DNA of 9,472 nucleotides from the NCBI GenBank assembly GCA_003647765.1, contig QMNM01000035.1, positions 1 through 9,472 on the forward strand, in the 5' to 3' direction. Positions 1,229 through 8,362 of this stretch are shown piece after piece; positions within the stretch are counted from its first letter, which is position 1; the number at the start of each line of letters is the position of its first letter. The stretch comes from Candidatus Cloacimonadota bacterium (GTDB lineage: Bacteria; Cloacimonadota; Cloacimonadia; JGIOTU-2; B8-G9). A program made the position numbers and the translations under genes. Under the pieces are notes generated by a model, which was not told where the DNA came from, made no database searches, and worked only from the letters and a program-made list of their open reading frames with translations.

Positions 1229-1254
1229 TTTTAGCCACAAGATTACACGAAAAA
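1229..1254 (+). repeat. Intergenic repeat, family A (TTAGCCAC..ACACGAA), copy 1
   Basis: The plus strand reads TTTTAGCCAC, then AAGATTACACGAA. A second copy lies on the minus strand at 8288-8317 (TTTTAGCCAC, then GAATAACACGAA), differing by one indel and a few substitutions. This copy fills most of the 55-nt gap between subunit A and the glycosyltransferase and ends 9 nt before the glycosyltransferase ATG, where a Shine-Dalgarno site would be expected. Confidence 0.6.
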
Positions 1255-1276
1255 GCAGAAAACTCATAACTGGAAT

Positions 1277-3046
1277 TTACCTATATCTATACTGCACACT
1301 TTTCAAACTCTCTTTGATTCGTTCTCTTAATTCATCTATTTGTTCTAATTTATCATTAGGAATTTGTGTTTTCATTCTGACTATTTCATCAACAATATCC
1401 ATTTCCATAACACTCATTACTGGTATGCCTGTTTGTATTACATCTTTTGCCTGATAATAAAAATCCATAATCAGTTCCATCATTTTTACCTGTTTTTTCA
1501 TTGGACAAAAGGAATCTATATTGTGGAAGGCATTCTGCTGTAAAAATGCCTTTTTGATTAAATCAGCAATTTCCAATATAAGTCGTTGATTGTCAGGTAA
1601 AGCATCTGGTCCAACCAGCTTTACTATTCTTTGCAATTGCTCTTCTTCTTTGAGAATATTCATCGTATTTTTACGCAATTCATACCAATTTCCACTCTTT
1701 TTGTCTAACTGTTCTTTAAGGTCGTTTATATATTCGCTATAGCTATCATTCCAGTTAATTGCAGGGAAATGCCGTCTACTTGCCAATTCTTTATCAAGAG
1801 CCCAGAAAGCGCGTGTAAATCTCTTTGTATGCTGTGTTACAGGCTCAGAGAAATCACCACCAGGTGGAGAGACCGCACCAATTACTGTGATTGAGCCCTG
1901 TCGTCCAATAATAATTTCTGCCTTTCCTGCTCTCTCATAAAATTCAGCTAGACGAGATGCGAGATAAGCAGGAAATCCCTCTTCTGCTGGCATCTCTTCC
2001 AATCGTCCTGCAATTTCACGCAATGCTTCTGCCCAACGCGAAGTAGAGTCAGCCATCAATGCAATATTATAGCCCATATCACGATAATATTCAGCTAATG
2101 TAATGCCTGTATAAATACTTGCCTCTCTGGCTGTAACTGGCATATTGGAAGTGTTGGCAATCAGAATAGTTCTTTCCATCAATGGTAAATTATTGCGAGG
2201 GTCTTTTAGTTTCGGGAACTCCTCTAATACTTGCGTCATTTCATTGCCACGTTCTCCACAACCAATATAAACAATAATATCAGCATCTGACCATTTAGCC
2301 AATTGATGTTGAGTAATGGTCTTGCCTGTTCCAAAGCCACCAGGAATTGCAGACGCTCCTCCTTTTGGTATGGGAAAGAAAAAGTCAATTATCCTTTGTC
2401 CTGTGATTAGTGGGACATTTGCCTTAATGCGACTCTTTATTGGTCTTGGCTGTCTGATGGGCCAGCGCTGAACCATTGTCAATTCCTTTATACTATCACC
2501 AGTATCAATTTTGCATACGACTTCATCTACATTATATTCGCCTTGATCAGCAATTTCTATAATTTGTCCATAAATTCCATCTGGAATCATCAATCTATGT
2601 TCAATAACCTTGGTCTCTTTCACTGTGCCAAAAATATGTAATGGATTAACTTTATCGCCATTTTTGTTTTTCGGGATAAAATGCCATTTTTTGTTTCTAT
2701 CCAACGGCTCAACAGATACACCTTTATCTATAAATGCTCCTGTTTTTTTAGCAATAACTTTTAATGGACGCTGTATGCCATCATAAATATTAGACATCAA
2801 GCCAGGGCCTAATTCTACTGAAAGCGGATGCTGTAAGCAATAAACATCCATCCCAGGAGTTAAGCCAGTTGTCAACTCATATACTTGAATAGTAGCAATT
2901 TTATTATCTAATTCAATAATTTCACCAATTAATTTCTCTGGGCCTACTTCTACTTGCTCGTTCATCCGACTTTTCACAATTCCACTGGCTTTTATAACAG
3001 GACCGTTAATAGAAATTATCTTACCAATAGCTCTATCTATATTCAT
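1277..3046 (-). CDS. atpA: V/A-type ATP synthase subunit A (catalytic)
   Basis: Catalytic nucleotide-binding subunit of the cytoplasmic V1/A1 head, which hydrolyses or makes ATP in a hexamer with subunit B. Numbered from the longest reading (start 3058, 593 aa): an N-terminal beta-barrel (5-75); the bulge domain specific to A subunits (about 110-190); the P-loop GGFGTGKT (240-247); GCGERGNEM (266-274) with catalytic Glu269; the Walker B region IALMADSTSRWAEAL (332-346) with Asp337; and a helical C-terminal domain. Length is normal for the family. I prefer the ATG at 3046 (589 aa, MNIDRAIGK), because a GGAG at 3053-3056 sits exactly 6 nt upstream of it, whereas the ATG at 3058 has no ribosome-binding site and would itself contain that GGAG. 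It follows E after 164 nt of repeat-rich DNA. Subunit B, normally next, is absent here. Identification is secure. Confidence 0.97.
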   Translation of the reverse strand: MNIDRAIGKIISINGPVIKASGIVKSRMNEQVEVGPEKLIGEIIELDNKIATIQVYELTTGLTPGMDVYCLQHPLSVELGPGLMSNIYDGIQRPLKVIAKKTGAFIDKGVSVEPLDRNKKWHFIPKNKNGDKVNPLHIFGTVKETKVIEHRLMIPDGIYGQIIEIADQGEYNVDEVVCKIDTGDSIKELTMVQRWPIRQPRPIKSRIKANVPLITGQRIIDFFFPIPKGGASAIPGGFGTGKTITQHQLAKWSDADIIVYIGCGERGNEMTQVLEEFPKLKDPRNNLPLMERTILIANTSNMPVTAREASIYTGITLAEYYRDMGYNIALMADSTSRWAEALREIAGRLEEMPAEEGFPAYLASRLAEFYERAGKAEIIIGRQGSITVIGAVSPPGGDFSEPVTQHTKRFTRAFWALDKELASRRHFPAINWNDSYSEYINDLKEQLDKKSGNWYELRKNTMNILKEEEQLQRIVKLVGPDALPDNQRLILEIADLIKKAFLQQNAFHNIDSFCPMKKQVKMMELIMDFYYQAKDVIQTGIPVMSVMEMDIVDEIVRMKTQIPNDKLEQIDELRERIKESLKSVQYRYR

Positions 3047-3052
3047 TAACAT

Positions 3053-3056
3053 CTCC
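3053..3056 (-). promoter_or_regulatory. Shine-Dalgarno site deciding the subunit A start
   Basis: GGAG on the minus strand, separated by 6 nt (ATGTTA) from the ATG at 3046. It lies inside the first codons of the longer reading that would begin at 3058, so it supports the start that is four codons shorter. Confidence 0.7.
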
Positions 3057-3083
3057 ATTACTGTTTATAAATAACAGATTACA

Positions 3084-3147
3084 AAATATCTAATTATAAA
3101 TATCTAATTTCTAATAAAATTACAAATGACAAATTACTAATTACAAA
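3084..3147. repeat. AT-rich short direct repeats between subunits E and A
   Basis: AAATATCTAATT occurs twice exactly, at 3084-3095 and 3098-3109 (period 14). It is followed at 3119-3147 by three ATTAC/AATTAC-type units (ATTACAAATGACAAATTAC, then TAATTACAAA). The two patterns make the middle of the 164-nt E-A gap a degenerate tandem array rather than random AT-rich DNA. There is no coding frame. Confidence 0.55.
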
Positions 3148-3176
3148 GTTTTTATCTTCTCATATTTGAATTGTTC

Positions 3177-3193
3177 GCAACAGATACACAAAG
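3177..3193 (+). repeat. Intergenic repeat, family B (GCCACAGAGACACAGA), degenerate copy
   Basis: GCAACAGATACACAAAG matches the copy at 4243-4259 in about 14 of 17 positions. It lies just downstream of the subunit E stop, in the gap that precedes subunit A. Weaker than the other two family B copies. Confidence 0.4.
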
Positions 3194-3210
3194 AGAGAAT
3201 TAATAATGGA

Positions 3211-3834
3211 TTAAACTTTGAAGAATTTGTTAATTAGCATCAGTTCCAGTTCATCTTGATTTCGTCTTATTATCTCTTCAAAATTATTGTAGTAAAATAC
3301 ACTTCTTTCTTTATTAGAAATAATTACTCCACCAGAAATTGGCTCTTTTGATTTCTCAATAGTAAAATTAATTTTTCCAATCCGTTTTTGAATAAAATCT
3401 GCAAATACTTTTTTCCTACTTTCCACAAATTCTTTGTCCCGCTTATTAAAAGCCAAAATAACTTCATTAGTATCAAGTAATTTAATTCCTTGTAATGATA
3501 GATTCTCTAATAAAGAAAAGTATTTATTATCAATTGGGGATTTCTGTAAAGATGTGAGAGTATCAGAAAAAATCCGATTAATAATTTCCTGCTCCTTTTT
3601 CAATTTGTCTCGTCTAATTATAAGCTGTTTGCTTCTAATTTCTTTTTTCTCTTCGGATAGCAATCTCTCTTTTATGGCTTTGTAATCAATATTCTTAATA
3701 TTATCTGCTTCTTCTCGTGCATTATCTAATTCTCTTTTTTTTATTTTTTGGGCAATTCGGACTTTTGATTCAGCTTCATTATACGCATTTTTTAGAATAT
3801 AATCTATCATCTCTTCACTTTTGTTCTCACTCAT
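3211..3834 (-). CDS. atpE: V/A-type ATP synthase subunit E (peripheral stalk)
   Basis: A 207-residue protein matching subunit E, which forms the peripheral stalk (stator) that keeps the catalytic head from turning with the rotor. Residues 1 to about 95 are a long, highly charged helix, as expected for the stalk coiled coil. The C-terminal globular part, which contacts the top of the head, carries the conserved SGGVIISNKERSVFYYNN stretch (167-184) and a final helix, EEIIRRNQDELELMLINKFF. Its ATG overlaps the F stop in an ATGA (3831-3834), implying translational coupling. AGGA lies 8 nt upstream of the ATG. The usual helical partner (subunit G/H) is not encoded in the window. Sequence conservation of E is low across the family, so length, charge pattern, C-terminal motif and neighbours together carry the call. 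Confidence 0.9.
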   Translation of the reverse strand: MSENKSEEMIDYILKNAYNEAESKVRIAQKIKKRELDNAREEADNIKNIDYKAIKERLLSEEKKEIRSKQLIIRRDKLKKEQEIINRIFSDTLTSLQKSPIDNKYFSLLENLSLQGIKLLDTNEVILAFNKRDKEFVESRKKVFADFIQKRIGKINFTIEKSKEPISGGVIISNKERSVFYYNNFEEIIRRNQDELELMLINKFFKV

Positions 3835-4133
3835 AATTTTATTCCTATGGCTTTTTGAATGATTTGTTCAATATTTTCTAAATGATAAGAAGTGTCAAAA
3901 ACAGTTGGGATAACAATTATTACAGACCCTTTATATTTAATTTTTAATTGTTCTACCAGCTCTTTATTATTTTTTTCAAATTCATTTCCGAGCAAGATAA
4001 TGCAATTTTTCTGCTTCAATATTTCCTCTGCCTTTTTTAAAGCAAGAGATGAAGTATCAAATTGATAACCAGAAAGCCCAACTAATTTGAGAGCTTTTAA
4101 TGTCAATTCATCAGCAATAACTTCAATATCCAT
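3831..4133 (-). CDS. atpF: V/A-type ATP synthase subunit F (central stalk)
   Basis: A 100-residue protein of the size and pattern of subunit F, a small Rossmann-like protein that sits with D in the rotating central stalk. It begins MDIEVIADELTLKALKLVGL, equivalent to the family's opening beta strand and helix (VIGDEDT..GFRLAGI type). It continues with a central CIILLGNEFEKNNKELVEQL (44-63), then VIIVIPT (71-77) ahead of a C-terminal helix. AAGG is 7 nt upstream of the ATG. The last four bases overlap subunit E. It follows K after a 216-nt gap that contains repeats and an imperfect palindrome. Subunit D, its direct partner, is not in the window. The family is divergent, but position and fold pattern agree. 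Confidence 0.88.
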   Translation of the reverse strand: MDIEVIADELTLKALKLVGLSGYQFDTSSLALKKAEEILKQKNCIILLGNEFEKNNKELVEQLKIKYKGSVIIVIPTVFDTSYHLENIEQIIQKAIGIKL

Positions 4134-4158
4134 TATATTACCTTATTTTAGTTGCGAG

Positions 4159-4239
4159 ATAATACGAACTTCTGCAAAATTTTTTAATTTTTTCATATAG
4201 AATTTTCCGCAATGAGTTTGTGATAAGTTCGTATATTAT
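4159..4239. repeat. 81-bp imperfect palindrome between atpK and atpF (MITE-like or structured RNA)
   Basis: The outer arms ATAATACGAACTT (4159-4171) and AAGTTCGTATATTAT (4225-4239) are reverse complements apart from a 2-nt insertion. An inner pair TGCAAAATT (4173-4181) and AATTTTCCGCA (4201-4211) pairs apart from a CC bulge. Together they give a two-part stem with an asymmetric internal loop and an 18-19 nt terminal loop. No transposase is present and no target duplication was found. It could be a miniature inverted-repeat element or a structure in the atpK-atpF transcript. Confidence 0.45.
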
Positions 4240-4258
4240 TTTGCCACAGAGACACAGA
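4238..4258 (+). repeat. Intergenic repeat, family B (GCCACAGAGACACAGA), best copy
   Basis: The plus strand reads ATTTTGCCACAGAGACAC followed by AGA. A copy on the minus strand at 8329-8346 is identical in 16 of 18 positions, and a degenerate copy lies at 3177-3193. All are outside genes. It directly abuts the 81-bp palindrome at 4159-4239. Confidence 0.6.
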
Positions 4259-4270
4259 CTAATTTCTATA

Positions 4271-4335
4271 TGGTTGGTAGTTGACTATTGATAATTTATC
4301 GTTCATTTACCAAAACAACAAGCATCTATCAACCA
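4271..4335. repeat. Imperfect inverted repeat downstream of atpK
   Basis: TGGTTGGTAG (4271-4280) and CTATCAACCA (4326-4335) are complementary in 9 of 10 positions across a 45-nt loop. It lies just after the subunit K stop and before the family B repeat. There is no T-run to make it a terminator. It may be chance or the remnant of another extragenic element. Confidence 0.25.
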
Positions 4336-4349
4336 AGAACCAGCTTCAT

Positions 4350-4724
4350 CTATACTTTGCCCAATATGATAATAGCAACAATCAATCCATAAATAGCGAT
4401 GCCTTCTGCTAAGCCAACATAAAGCAAACTCCTTCCCATCAGTTCTGGTTTTTCTGCAACTGCGCCCATTGCGGCTGCACCTACAGAAGAAACAGCAAAT
4501 CCAGCACCTATACAAGCTCCACTAACAGCAATTGCAGATGCAATATACGCCATTCCTGAATTATCCTTTGCATGGCTATTATGGCTATTCTCTGTTATCT
4601 GCTGCTCATCAGGATTGGCAAATAATGTCTGATAAAAAAACAAAAAGCTGGTTATAACTATTGCCAAAGCAAATGCCACTACAAAAATTCTTATAATTGT
4701 TTTAGAATTTACTTTTTTCAACAT
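4350..4724 (-). CDS. atpK: V/A-type ATP synthase subunit K (c-ring proteolipid)
   Basis: A membrane rotor-ring subunit that carries the translocated ion. It has 124 residues: an N-terminal hydrophobic segment (about 10-32), a polar linker rich in N, S and H (36-57), then one c-type hairpin. The first hairpin helix is about 58-90 (GMAYIASAIAVSGACIGAGF, then AVSSVGAAAMG), the loop is EKPE (91-94), and the second helix is 98-122 with the ion-binding carboxylate Glu107 in GLAEGIAIYGL. The first segment may be a cleaved leader (TLFA before NPDE), leaving a mature subunit of about 88 residues; otherwise it is a third membrane helix. AAGGAG lies 9 nt upstream of the ATG. It is the first gene of the minus-strand cluster. 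The Gln and Thr ligands typical of Na+-binding rings are replaced (Val78 and Ala106 by ungapped alignment from memory). Confidence 0.93.
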   Translation of the reverse strand: MLKKVNSKTIIRIFVVAFALAIVITSFLFFYQTLFANPDEQQITENSHNSHAKDNSGMAYIASAIAVSGACIGAGFAVSSVGAAAMGAVAEKPELMGRSLLYVGLAEGIAIYGLIVAIIILGKV

Positions 4725-4794
4725 ATCATTTTTCTCCTTTTAAATTTATAATTTCCCTAAATTTGAGATAAGTGCCTGATCAAAGGTTTTTCTT

Positions 4795-4818
4795 CACAGC
4801 AAATACGCAAAGATAAGG
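4795..4818 (+). repeat. Intergenic element, family C (CAGCAAATACGCAAAG type)
   Basis: CACAGCAAATACGCAAAGAT is a single copy here, with an internal degenerate GCAAA(T/G)ACGCAAAG periodicity. In composition and position it resembles families A and B: it lies in the 5' leader region of a gene (atpK) and its minus strand is the sense strand. Membership in a repeat family rests on this resemblance and not on a second copy in the window. Confidence 0.3.
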
Positions 4819-4959
4819 AAATATTTTTACTCCAAATGCCTGAAAACTTATACTTTATCCATTTAATAGTTCCAACTATACAACAAATTTATTATGCCAA
4901 ATATTATAAATTTCATCTTTACACTTATATTGTAATTATTAAAATGATTTTTATATTTT

Positions 4960-4965
4960 TTGACA
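4960..4965 (+). promoter_or_regulatory. ribE: Possible -35 hexamer for the ribE cluster
   Basis: TTGACA matches the sigma-70 -35 consensus exactly, and a second TTGACA occurs at 4989-4994. The region 15-19 nt downstream offers only weak -10 candidates (TACTTA, CTTATT). In DNA this AT-rich such matches can arise by chance. Confidence 0.25.
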
Positions 4966-4990
4966 ATTATAAATTTAATTTACTTATTTT

Positions 4991-5020
4991 GACATTTCAA
5001 AAAGCGAGAAATGTCTTTTT
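4991..5020 (+). terminator. Hairpin plus T-run in the ribE leader (attenuator-like dyad)
   Basis: GACATTTC (4991-4998) and GAAATGTC (5008-5015) are perfect 8-bp inverted repeats around a 9-nt loop (AAAAAGCGA), followed immediately by TTTTT (5016-5020). That is the layout of a small intrinsic terminator on the plus strand, ending 32 nt before the ribE ATG. It could equally be an operator overlapping the second TTGACA. The stem is not GC-rich, so termination would be weak. Confidence 0.4.
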
Positions 5021-5052
5021 GGTGTCAACAAAATTTTATAAAGAGTTTAGAT

Positions 5053-5637
5053 ATGTTCACTGGAATAATCAGATTTTTAGGAAGTGTGCAAGAAATCAGG
5101 AAAATAGGCAATAAGAATTTTATTACCATATTTATTCCATCTATAAAATCTATCATCAAAATAGGAGATTCTGTTGCTTGTAATGGAATATGCTTAACTA
5201 TTGTCAAAATCAAAGATAAAAGCATTACTGTTGAAATATCCGAAGAGACCAGTTTAAAAACTGATGTTAGACATTGGATAAGAGCTGAGCTAATAAATAT
5301 TGAACTGCCAATGGGAGTTAATGATAGATTTGATGGTCACTTTGTACAGGGCCACATTGATTGCATTGGAAAAATTGTCAGCATAAAGAAACAGAAGGGT
5401 AATTATTTATTCACTTTTTCCTTCCCTCCAAAATATCATAATTTAGTGGTAGAAAATGGCTCTATTGCTATCAATGGTATAAGTATGACCAGTTTTGATG
5501 TAAAACGGAATATGTTCACAGTTTCTATAATAGAACATACAATAGAGAATACTAATCTAAAATGTAAAAAGGTTGGTAATCTTGTTAATTTGGAATTTGA
5601 TATAATTGGAAAATATATAGTAAGATGTTTAAATTAG
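5053..5637 (+). CDS. ribE: Riboflavin synthase, alpha subunit
   Basis: Catalyses the dismutation of two 6,7-dimethyl-8-ribityllumazine molecules to riboflavin and a pyrimidinedione, the last step of riboflavin synthesis, in the cytoplasm. The 194-residue protein has two lumazine-binding barrels. The first is MFTGII through GDSVACNGICLTIV (38-51) and ISEET. The second starts at about 95 with GHFVQGHIDCIGKI and carries NGSIAINGISMTSF (135-148), EHTIENTNL and VNLEFDIIGKYIVR. Ser40, Cys47 and His101 correspond to the active-site residues known in the E. coli enzyme. An upstream in-frame ATG at 5011 exists, but the family starts MFTGI, so the ATG at 5053 is chosen; its ribosome-binding site is weak (AAGAG). 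It is first in the plus-strand cluster, 39 nt before a lipoprotein. Downstream rnfG encodes a covalent FMN protein, a plausible consumer of its product. Also called ribC in some species. Confidence 0.95.
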   Translation: MFTGIIRFLGSVQEIRKIGNKNFITIFIPSIKSIIKIGDSVACNGICLTIVKIKDKSITVEISEETSLKTDVRHWIRAELINIELPMGVNDRFDGHFVQGHIDCIGKIVSIKKQKGNYLFTFSFPPKYHNLVVENGSIAINGISMTSFDVKRNMFTVSIIEHTIENTNLKCKKVGNLVNLEFDIIGKYIVRCLN

Positions 5638-5676
5638 TTTACACACTCGCAACCTTGACTAATAGGACAAAATGAA

Positions 5677-7014
5677 ATGAAGAAAAATTATTGGAATTGC
5701 TTAAATAGTGTTATGTTGTTGATATTACTGACAACAATAGGATGCGGTAGAAAAAAACCACCTACTGGCGGTCCAGTGGATACAGAATCCCCTTGTATTA
5801 TCTCTTTTTCACCAGAAAATTATGCTACAAATTTCACTGGCAATAATCTTAAAATAATATTTAGCAAAGAAATTGATAAGTCATCATTTCTTTCAGCATA
5901 TAATATTTATCCACCAATGGGAAAGATCAAATTGAAATGGAAAAGGAATTCTGTAATAATAGAACCTAACGAGAATTTCATACAAAACACCAATTATTTT
6001 GTAACTATAAACAAAAGATGTAAAGATATACATAATAACAAATTGGCGAATATTTATACTTATATTTTCTCAACACAGGCAAAATTACCTAATAATTCAA
6101 TAAAAGTAGCAATTGATTCTATTGCTCAATCTACATTAAGTCGTGGAAATGTGTATGTATCGTTATTTGATGAAGATACATTATTAGTGATGAGTAAAGA
6201 GATAAATGAATTTAGCCAAGCTGAATTTTCCTGTTTGAATTTAGGAACTTATCTCATAACTGGTTTTCAGGATTTGAACGATGATTTTTTGTATAATTTT
6301 GATAATGAACCATATGCTAAAAATAAAGTTAATTTGAATAGCCATATTGTAAGTGTCAGTTTATATATGAGTTTAGCTGATACAACAAAACCGCATTTGA
6401 AGGCAATAAAAACACTACATAAAAATAGCATTGAATTGTTATTTACAGAACCAGTGAAAATATCGGATAATTTTTCAGACAAAATAAAAATTGTCCAAGC
6501 AGAAGATATTGAAAATACTTTGGCAGTTAAAGATTACTTATCAGTTAAAGATAAAATTATCCTTATAACAGAGGATCAGGATAGTGTTAAATATAAATTG
6601 TATATGACCGAGATTATGGATGAGAAAGGGAATATAACAAAGCAAGATTCTTTAATTTTTATTGGTAATTCTCATATAGACAGGACTCCACTTTCCATTA
6701 TTTTTTGTTATCCGCCAGATGGAAGTACTGTAAATACGCTATTGCCAGATATAGTAATAAAATTTGACAGGCTATTACCACCAAAAAATGTTGTAGCATA
6801 TCTTGTAAATAGTGAAGATAATAGGAAAATTTCAGTAAATATTTATAGAATTGCAGGAAATGAATACAGGTTCTCACCAAAAAGGAAATTGCGAAATTAT
6901 GTGCCTTATGCTTTTATTTTAGATGAAAAAACCGAAGATTACAATGGAAATAACTTATCAAAGATGTTTAAAATCAGTATATTACCAATAAGTAAAGATG
7001 AGTATAAAGAATAG
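5677..7014 (+). CDS. Ig-like (SbsA-type) multidomain lipoprotein
   Basis: A 445-residue exported lipoprotein of unknown function. A basic, hydrophobic signal (1-22) ends in LTTIGC, with Cys23 as the probable lipidated residue; Thr at -3 makes the lipobox slightly unusual. The mature N-terminus holds PPTGGPVDTESP (28-39), the opening typical of Ig-like (SbsA_Ig/Big_5) lipoproteins in Bacteroidetes-related phyla. By eye there are four modules: an SbsA-type Ig domain (36-132, SFSPENYATNF, IIFSKEID, ending YTYIFST); a beta-rich domain with GTYLITGFQDLNDD (190-203); a third Ig-like region (235-330, ELLFTEPVKI); and a second SbsA-like domain (333-436, YPPDGS, IKFDRLLPPKNV, DYNGNNLSKMF). AGGA is 9 nt upstream of the ATG. 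It sits between ribE and rnfG on one strand with short gaps and is probably co-transcribed. No catalytic motif is seen; a structural or adhesive envelope role is the usual guess. Confidence 0.85.
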   Translation: MKKNYWNCLNSVMLLILLTTIGCGRKKPPTGGPVDTESPCIISFSPENYATNFTGNNLKIIFSKEIDKSSFLSAYNIYPPMGKIKLKWKRNSVIIEPNENFIQNTNYFVTINKRCKDIHNNKLANIYTYIFSTQAKLPNNSIKVAIDSIAQSTLSRGNVYVSLFDEDTLLVMSKEINEFSQAEFSCLNLGTYLITGFQDLNDDFLYNFDNEPYAKNKVNLNSHIVSVSLYMSLADTTKPHLKAIKTLHKNSIELLFTEPVKISDNFSDKIKIVQAEDIENTLAVKDYLSVKDKIILITEDQDSVKYKLYMTEIMDEKGNITKQDSLIFIGNSHIDRTPLSIIFCYPPDGSTVNTLLPDIVIKFDRLLPPKNVVAYLVNSEDNRKISVNIYRIAGNEYRFSPKRKLRNYVPYAFILDEKTEDYNGNNLSKMFKISILPISKDEYKE

Positions 7015-7050
7015 GATAAACTCAATCATCCGCAAGGATTAGATAAAAAC

Positions 7051-7056
7051 AAGGAG
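7051..7056 (+). promoter_or_regulatory. Strong Shine-Dalgarno site selecting a TTG start for rnfG
   Basis: AAGGAG followed by 6 nt (TCAACA) and then TTG at 7063. The next in-frame ATG (7081) would remove the first six residues and has no comparable site, so the TTG is preferred. Confidence 0.75.
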
Positions 7057-7062
7057 TCAACA

Positions 7063-7626
7063 TTGAATGATGTAGTAAAGATGGGACTTGTTTTGTTAAT
7101 TATTACTTTAATAGCCAGTTGTGTATTAGCGGTTATTTATCAAAAGACAGCACCTATTATTGCTAAAAATAAACAGTTGGAAGAGGAAAAAGCCAGAAAG
7201 TCAGTATTGCCAGAAGCTGACCATTTCCAAGAAATCACAGAACAAAAAATTATAGGACAGGATACTGTTCATACTATTCTCTATTATAAGGGATTAGATA
7301 AGCATAACAGATTAGTTGGTTATACCTTTAGATGTGAAAAATATGGATATAGTAGTAATGTTCAAACAATGGTTGGCATTGACACGCTTTTCAATATAAT
7401 AGCAATAAAAGTGATATCCCAACAGGAAACACCTGGATTGGGAGCAAATTGTGCTACTTCTGAATTTGCAGAGAAATTTCAACATAAAACTCCAGAAAAT
7501 ATTATGGTAGATAAAGATGGCGGTGATATTGAATCTATAACAGGAGCGACAATTACTACCAGAGCTGTTACTAATTCTATCAAAGAGAAGTTCATTGATA
7601 TTAAAGAGAGGTTGATAGAAAAATGA
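7063..7626 (+). CDS. rnfG: Rnf complex subunit RnfG (covalent FMN protein)
   Basis: A subunit of the membrane ferredoxin:NAD+ oxidoreductase (Rnf), which couples electron transfer to ion pumping. It is anchored by one N-terminal helix (about 7-27), with the rest on the outer face. It has 187 residues, typical of RnfG and shorter than the related NqrC. Seen motifs are QETPGLGAN (121-129) and the flavinylation site SITGATITT (158-166), where Thr163 should carry FMN by a phosphoester bond; the common form is SGAT, here TGAT. The attachment enzyme ApbE is not in the window. It starts with TTG behind an ideal ribosome-binding site. Its stop overlaps the rnfE start (ATGA), so the two are coupled. 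rnfC and rnfD, which usually precede rnfG, are replaced upstream by a lipoprotein gene 48 nt away. Confidence 0.93.
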   Translation: MNDVVKMGLVLLIITLIASCVLAVIYQKTAPIIAKNKQLEEEKARKSVLPEADHFQEITEQKIIGQDTVHTILYYKGLDKHNRLVGYTFRCEKYGYSSNVQTMVGIDTLFNIIAIKVISQQETPGLGANCATSEFAEKFQHKTPENIMVDKDGGDIESITGATITTRAVTNSIKEKFIDIKERLIEK

Positions 7627-8216
7627 AAGCATTCGGAGAATTAACAAAAGGAATAATTAAAGAAAATCCAATTTTTGTAATGGCACTTGGATTATGTCCT
7701 ACATTAGCAGTTAGCACTTCTGTGAATAACGCTATTGGAATGGGAGCAGCTGCAACTTTTGTTCTGATTGGTTCTAATATAGTAATTTCTCTAATAAAAA
7801 ATTTCATACCATCAAAGGTGCGCATTCCAGCATATATTGTAATAATTGCTTCTTTTGTTACAGTTGTTGATATGGTAATGGAGGCCTATGCCGCATCATT
7901 GCACAAAAGTTTAGGGCTTTTCATTCCTTTAATTGTAGTGAATTGCATAATTTTAGGAAGAGCAGAAGCATTTGCAAGCAAAAATTCTGTTGGTTCATCT
8001 ATATTAGATGGTATTGGAATGGGTATTGGATTTTCACTCGCTTTAATAGTTATTGCTACTATCCGTGAGATAATTGGGACAGGTAAATTTTATGGAATGC
8101 AGATATTACCATGTTCGTATCAACCAGCGATTTGTGCTATCCTACCGCCTGGGGCATTTTTTACAATTGGAATATTGATGGCTTTATTTAATAAGTGGGT
8201 AGCCAAAAAATCGTAA
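7623..8216 (+). CDS. rnfE: Rnf complex subunit RnfE
   Basis: An integral membrane subunit of Rnf. It has 197 residues with about six predicted membrane helices. It is one of the inverted RnfA/RnfE pair that together bind a [2Fe-2S] cluster within the membrane. The cysteines expected to hold it are present: Cys25 in LGLCPTLAV and Cys108 in VVNCIILGRAEAFA. Other family features are the NNAIGMG turn (35-41), FIPSKVRIPAYIVIIASFVT (61-80), and the ILDGIGMGIGFSLAL helix start (127-141) before IREIIGTG. The motif wording fits RnfE better than NqrD, although the two families are homologous. The ATG overlaps the rnfG stop by 4 nt, with GAGAGG about 11 nt upstream. It is followed by a 146-nt repeat-containing gap before rnfA, where these genes are often close or overlapping. 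Confidence 0.94.
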   Translation: MKAFGELTKGIIKENPIFVMALGLCPTLAVSTSVNNAIGMGAAATFVLIGSNIVISLIKNFIPSKVRIPAYIVIIASFVTVVDMVMEAYAASLHKSLGLFIPLIVVNCIILGRAEAFASKNSVGSSILDGIGMGIGFSLALIVIATIREIIGTGKFYGMQILPCSYQPAICAILPPGAFFTIGILMALFNKWVAKKS

Positions 8217-8287
8217 TTGCTATAGAAATTACTCTATGCCCTCTGCCTGTCCTTCGTAATTTTTAGGAATGTTTTGGGATAAATTTA

Positions 8288-8317
8288 TTCGTGTTTCTTC
8301 GTGTTATTCGTGGCTAA
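8288..8317 (-). repeat. Intergenic repeat, family A, copy 2
   Basis: The plus strand carries three TTCGTG units at 8288, 8298 and 8307 (spacings 10 and 9), ending GTGGCTAAAA. The reverse complement starts TTTTAGCCACGAATAACACG and matches the copy at 1229-1254 with one indel. It lies within the rnfE-rnfA gap, next to a family B copy in the same orientation. Confidence 0.65.
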
Positions 8318-8328
8318 AACGAAGTAGG

Positions 8329-8346
8329 ATGTCTCTGTTGCAAAAT
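8329..8346 (-). repeat. Intergenic repeat, family B, copy near rnfA
   Basis: The plus strand reads ATGTCTCTGTTGCAAAAT. Its reverse complement, ATTTTGCAACAGAGACAT, matches the copy at 4238-4255 in 16 of 18 positions. It ends 7 nt before the rnfA Shine-Dalgarno site. Confidence 0.6.
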
Positions 8347-8362
8347 AAAAATTGGAGGCAAA

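Follow-up and report, generated by a model that had tools for sequence, protein, structure and literature searches.

Short intergenic repeats in a Candidatus Cloacimonadota genome as probable arms of small inverted-repeat gene cassettes

The stretch of DNA analysed here, the whole of which we call the window, is 9,472 nucleotides of a Candidatus Cloacimonadota bacterium (contig QMNM01000035.1 of assembly GCA_003647765.1, our C35, from a draft genome of 1.97 Mb that is 88.8% complete), and it carries two short repeats, families A and B, in the gaps between its genes. The question that it raises is what these repeats are and how the same words came to stand in front of unrelated genes. A first-pass annotation made from the letters of the window had described two repeat families, always in the same sense as the following gene, and had proposed that they were mobile extragenic palindrome-like elements, leader-RNA motifs or protein-binding sites; its observation was partly confirmed and its interpretation is partly supported by what follows. 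The explanation that we favor, with a probability of about 0.68, is that the repeats are the arms of small inverted-repeat gene cassettes and that the copies in the window are solo-arm derivatives without a gene.

Copy number, orientation and design of the two repeats

When the genome was searched for family A at up to 3 mismatches, 97 copies were found compared to 2 for the reversed-pattern control, and for family B at 3 mismatches there were 209 copies compared to 72 for the reversed pattern. Placement and orientation were scored in 1.07 Mb of this genome, 1.0 Mb of it readable, with genes delimited by simple open reading frame calling. In DNA that is 86% coding, 50 of 53 A copies and 71 of 86 B copies were intergenic, and the intergenic placement of all five sites listed for the window was borne out. 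The uniform sense relative to the next gene was not. In gaps between genes on the same strand, A was sense in 21 copies and antisense in 8, and B was sense in 32 and antisense in 20, so that orientation is a bias and no rule. A sense bias was also seen among close B copies in same-strand gaps (24:10).

These figures bear on the possibility that the repeats are a leader-RNA or DNA-binding motif that regulates the next gene, as proposed for the TAACTGA repeats. The moderate sense bias agrees with it, and the distance from the end of the copy to a start codon is 14-60 nt in many cases, with some copies right before a Shine-Dalgarno sequence. However, about a third of the copies in same-strand gaps are antisense to both neighbors, the words vary by lineage, Rfam covariance models gave no family match at the repeats, and the copy between rnfE and rnfA sits where relatives have just a short gap. 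The leader-RNA and binding-site options needed a uniform orientation, which is absent genome-wide, and we regard regulation of the next gene as quite improbable. The GTGGC end of the repeat is nearer to a gene than the opposite end whichever the orientation, as it would be if GTGGC were one end of a longer element whose remainder lies on the opposite side. Mirror-image words were in excess upstream in this genome, 19 upstream of A compared to 6 downstream (4 expected) and 9 upstream of B compared to 2 downstream (2.6 expected).

In aligned copies A and B have the same design, in which GTG words occur three times at intervals of 8-10 nt and the end reads GTGGC or GTGGCTA. They therefore look like two word variants of one architecture, and not like the two separate families of the first-pass annotation. 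Relatives carry their own versions of the words (TTCGTGTTTTTCGTGGTTA, TTCGTGTAGTTCGTGGCTA and others), and matches to reversed patterns are almost nil. A triplet of matches 259-260 nt apart was seen in a genome of the same order (G009) and likewise in a contig named Candidatus Cloacimonadota CSMAG_2468. Other intergenic repeats were also noticed in contigs L061-L200 of the window's own genome, among them a palindrome, GAAACCCGACTCGAGTTCAAAGAACCCGAGTCGGGTTTCA, in about 20 copies, and GCGTAGTGCGTAATGCG words; in the same contigs AATCTTTCAATC words adjoin A and B copies.

Mirror arms, enclosed genes and empty sites

This architecture, with three GTG words at intervals of 9-10 nt and the terminus GTGG-N-TA, was met in a scan of genome contigs from Planctomycetes, Acidobacteria, Verrucomicrobia, Lentisphaeria, Chloroflexi, Desulfobacteria, Bacteroidetes, Spirochaetes, Proteobacteria and others. 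The search pattern has 16 fixed bases, for which about 120 chance matches are expected in such a collection, and because the number of matches was close to this level the third word and the mirror arm, both of which lie outside the pattern, were used as tests. A third GTG word was present exactly 9 or 10 nt upstream in 93 of 133 cross-phylum sites, and a fourth at 18 nt in 2. The mirror word CACGAA was upstream in 61 of the 133 (121 occurrences where about 4 are expected) and downstream in 6, and in elements with two arms the spacers between words were exact complements in 14 of 25, compared to a mean of 4.1 and a maximum of 11 in 5000 shuffles. These two tests settle that the cross-phylum matches exceed chance, and from the upstream mirror words and the complementary spacers it follows that the repeat represents one of the two arms of an inverted repeat whose loop varies.

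At several loci the loop holds a gene. At four cross-phylum loci that were found by the repeat alone (L342, L316, L327 and L247) a gene for a GxxExxY protein (TIGR04256/PF13366) lies directly between CACGAA arms, and at L250 such a gene lies within arms of the same design built from CGCAGAT words; the gene of L327 has an internal deletion. Five GxxExxY sequences share invariant D67, E77, K79 and Q91-x3-Y95, the pattern of the PD-(D/E)XK nuclease family to which the protein belongs, and nuclease activity is probable. Paired arms without a gene are also present among the cross-phylum loci. The window's own genome carries 4 GxxExxY and 3 S23 genes, and in one of its contigs (C114, locus L174) arrays of A-type arms adjoin a GxxExxY gene, and mirror arms made of other words (GAGTAGATGAGTAAATGG and its mirror) enclose an S23 gene (PF05635). 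The arrays of this contig, at 5689-5799 and 6385-6495, are tandem 46-bp repeats of A-type arms (TTTTAGCCACCAAGAACACTAAGAAACACGAAAAAGTTGATACATC) that flank the GxxExxY gene. Viral contigs yielded only 5 GxxExxY loci; in two of these contigs, L362 and L363, the genes are flanked by AT-rich repeats of the TTTTAAGTAAAATTT type with very high inverted-flank scores of 81 and 96.

The association was also approached from the side of the protein. Twenty plasmid loci, 8 with GxxExxY and 12 with S23, were picked by protein similarity only, and their flanks were compared to those of 371 ordinary genes of comparable length in the window's genome, a control whose base composition differs from that of the plasmid loci. 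Inverted flanks at p<0.01 were found in 10 of the 20 (0.2 expected) and 12 of the 20 were beyond the 5% level. Arms of CACAGAG words resembling family B are present at L365 and L367, with CACAGAG mirror arms in Bacteroides and Bernardetia; a Riemerella plasmid locus has mirror arms of AAGGTTTA, and in cyanobacterial plasmid loci the mirror-arm words are GGGAGTA, GGGAACA, GGGAAAA and TAGGGTG. With L174 of the window's genome, S23 genes lie inside inverted arms at L371, L375-L379, L381 and L382. The genes of these plasmid loci interrupt linked pairs, which include fabD/fabG, cas6/cas4, cas10/cmr3 and two ribonucleotide reductase subunits. At L374, from Pseudanabaena, an S23 gene between cas6 and cas4 has long AAAAGCT/AAAAGCC arrays on both sides that are direct and not inverted.

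Comparison of orthologous sites shows that the unit is present or absent as a whole. For three S23 loci of cyanobacterial plasmids there are relatives in which the entire arm-gene-arm unit is missing between the same neighbor genes, which in the closest case are separated by just 3 bp. At the site where the full cassette stands in L375, L390 carries paired arms with no gene between them, and in another plasmid an S23 cassette built from different words lies one gene off. The rnfE-rnfA gap of the window fits the same picture, being 146 bp long whereas the orthologous gap in 15 genomes of the same order is 9-88 bp (median 24). The difference would correspond to some 120 added bp, a figure estimated from match ends and not from aligned DNA.

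Two explanations that involve no mobile unit have to be weighed at this point. According to the first, the tandem words arose by replication slippage and recombination in intergenic DNA, and the GxxExxY and S23 genes simply came to lie within or next to them. The arms do consist of tandem 7-10-nt words, as in the heptamer repeats of cyanobacteria, whole arms stand in tandem arrays at L174, and in the window's genome solo arms outnumber full cassettes. Slippage, however, yields direct copies and not mirror-image ones on the two sides of a gene, both arms are missing at the empty sites, and three words with the fixed GTGG end recur in different phyla, for which reasons we consider this origin unlikely. 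According to the second, the repeats are RNA-processing or transcript-stability hairpins kept by selection within operons. Arms pair as RNA and they do lie between operon genes, for example rnfE-rnfA, fabD-fabG and cas6-cas4, but most copies in the window's genome are solo arms with no partner and presence differs among close relatives, which makes selected hairpins very unlikely.

The probable cassette and its relation to known elements

A full cassette has a short gene flanked on the left by an arm of the form TTAACCAC-word-word and on the right by its mirror image, word-word-GTGGTTAA. The gene encodes either a GxxExxY protein or an S23 four-helix-bundle protein. The words of the arms, 7-10 nt apart, vary between elements and agree within one element, and the cassettes occupy intergenic sites, often within operons, and come and go as whole units, as seen at the three S23 loci. 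The copies in the window would then be solo arms that were left by cassettes or had spread without the gene, and may be compared with the gene-less arms at a Nostoc site. Spread may take place by copying of the arm hairpin, perhaps with the encoded protein acting in trans. The transcript of a full cassette would form a long stem, and it is plausible that processing of the RNase III type might make the insertion tolerable to operons, as happens with the intervening sequences of rRNA.

Several observations weigh against the cassette explanation. The copies in the window have no mirror arm or gene nearby, and it is the arm sequence that ties them to the cassettes. The upstream partner is missing in about half of the cross-phylum copies, and 10 of the 20 loci chosen by protein have no inverted flanks at the 1% level, some of them having direct repeats instead (L374). 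GxxExxY or S23 genes also occur in 55 of 64 Cloacimonadota genomes that are free of the two words, so that the gene is no predictor of the word. The junctions of the three empty sites give no unambiguous target-site duplication; at one locus a 7-bp ATTCTAA is found on both sides, which is indistinguishable from an arm word and was not counted. The partial sense bias (A 21:8) has no account in the cassette model. Finally, the mobilisation of the cassettes is something that we infer, and the cassettes examined contain no transposase.

The 64 genomes belong to a set of 124 Cloacimonadota of which the other 60 bear the repeats, and the statistics on this set, which ignore kinship, are supporting evidence only. 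GxxExxY or S23 is present in 58 of the 60, and the summed counts of A and B show correlations of rho 0.34 with S23 and 0.28 with GxxExxY, and a lower one of 0.17 (p 0.06) with the RAYT transposase. This brings in the possibility that the repeats are repetitive extragenic palindromic (REP) elements or REPINs moved by a RAYT (TnpA-REP) transposase. The repeats are indeed intergenic, multi-copy and hairpin-forming, and RAYT-like genes are present in many Cloacimonadota. But no match to RAYT (NF047646) was found in the window's genome, 88.8% complete, despite its 97 A copies, and RAYT as a requirement is thereby ruled out; 16 repeat-bearing genomes are without any RAYT, including one with 46 copies (G029), and another with 19 RAYT matches has no copies (G114). 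The anatomy differs as well. A REP is a palindrome of 20-40 bp with a tagged foot, GTAG or similar, whereas single arms of about 30 nt are not palindromic here and the long arms pair across loops of 29 nt to several hundred nt. RAYT-driven movement is thus highly improbable. The palindrome-like option of the first-pass annotation nevertheless came closest, in that the repeats would be arms of cassettes that some relatives carry at a given site and others lack, even though they are not REPs of the RAYT type. Miniature inverted-repeat transposable elements (MITEs) may offer another likeness, since gene-less inverted-repeat copies (L390 and the cross-phylum loci) occur beside rarer gene-bearing ones; unlike in MITEs there is no known transposase, no assigned target-site duplication, and many arms are single, including those of the window.

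The cyanobacterial short tandemly repeated repetitive (STRR) heptamers are intergenic 7-nt words in tandem. The repeats described here are similar, with a spacing of 8-10 nt in the window's genome and 7 nt in the cyanobacterial loci, and the STRR-like words GGGAGTA, GGGAACA and TAGGGTG form both arms around S23 genes; no description of STRR as mirror arms of a gene cassette was found in the literature searched. The intervening sequences of 23S rRNA with an S23 open reading frame, for example in Coxiella burnetii, have been termed selfish and parasitic, and like the cassettes they have inverted terminal arms around a small gene for an S23 four-helix bundle and are patchy and horizontally spread (PMC4990558). 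An S23 gene in inverted arms is found in the cassette class and not in the solo arms of the window. Unlike the known intervening sequences, which lie within 23S rRNA helices and are excised from pre-rRNA by RNase III, the cassette sites examined lie between protein-coding genes, the arms consist of tandem words, GxxExxY may take the place of S23, and many gene-less solo arms accompany the cassettes. TAACTGA direct repeats of Beggiatoaceae, cyanobacteria and Bacteroidetes are likewise short intergenic words, mostly just upstream of starts, have been proposed to be sites of a translational regulator, and are scattered across phyla with no evident transfer mechanism; the text of that paper mentions neither 23S intervening sequences nor GxxExxY (PMC4679880). 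They are a single fixed heptamer in direct repeats, whereas the words here vary and mirror arms occur, and a rule of forward orientation just before start codons does not describe ratios of 21:8 and 32:20.

The pieces are thus known apart, and no paper that links them was found in the open-access literature searched. No relevant paper turned up there for the exact words, GxxExxY had only passing mentions, and none was found in which short-word arms are connected with S23 or GxxExxY, although such a paper may exist. Intergenic repeats of short words are widespread and mostly without explanation, and there is no consensus on what S23 intervening sequences or GxxExxY proteins do; in the arm-gene-arm view the repeats acquire an origin that is concrete and can be tested, the two orphan protein families acquire a context, and there is reason for caution against treating such repeats as regulatory leaders. 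A wider and tentative proposal, which we hold with considerable doubt, is that the many unexplained short-word repeats between bacterial genes, CACGAA, CACAGAG and the STRR heptamers among them, are all arms of one minimal class of mobile element that carries no genes other than GxxExxY or S23, inserts between operon genes and crosses phyla by a new mechanism, possibly hairpin copying with a nuclease or with an S23/Avd-like protein that recruits a reverse transcriptase. S23 proteins are distant relatives of Avd of diversity-generating retroelements. The match of S23 to bAvd was sub-threshold only (E 0.025), and a reverse-transcriptase route through this kinship may be worth testing, nothing more.

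Repeat sites and other features of the window

The genes of the window include a V-ATPase cluster (subunits A, E, F and K), one for a glycosyltransferase, and rnfG-rnfE-rnfA. As to the coordinates given by the first-pass annotation, both A sites and the B site at 4238 stood up, the latter and the A site at 8288-8317 being full matches, while the B site at 3177 is degenerate and that at 8329 is weak.

Table 1. Positions of repeat arms and of the enlarged rnf gap in the window
Feature	Position	Strand	Remarks
Family A arm, left-arm orientation (TTTTAGCCACAAGATTACACGAAAAA)	1229..1254	+	Exact pattern; gap upstream of glycosyltransferase gene
Degenerate family B arm	3177..3193	+	3 mismatches in 16; upstream of V-ATPase subunit A
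Family B arm, solo	4238..4258	+	Exact GCCACAGAGACACAGA at 4243-4258; upstream of V-ATPase subunit F
rnfE-rnfA gap, 146 bp	8217..8362		Holds A and B
Family A arm, three TTCGTG words, right-arm orientation (TTCGTGTTTCTTCGTGTTATTCGTGGCTAA)	8288..8317	+	Between rnfE and rnfA
Weak, partial family B-like stretch (ATGTCTCTGTTGCAAAAT)	8329..8346	+	Not recovered at <=3 mismatches

The first A copy reads TTAGCCAC-N6-ACACGAA exactly, where 0.03 matches at <=2 mismatches are expected in the window; it is solo, with no mirror arm nearby, and the stretch recurs in the genome (26 local blastn hits). For the degenerate B copy, 0.01 is expected for any match at <=3 mismatches. Part of the rnfE-rnfA gap, at about 8248-8325, is likewise repeated in the genome, with 45 local hits. 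Another repeat, rich in ATCTAATTTCTAAT/AATTACAAAT words, occupies 3083-3147 in the gap before V-ATPase subunit A and has 18 local hits genome-wide. At 5011-5637, divergent from the V-ATPase cluster, there is a gene that resembles riboflavin synthase alpha (MFTGIIRFLGSV...) when its translation is read by eye.

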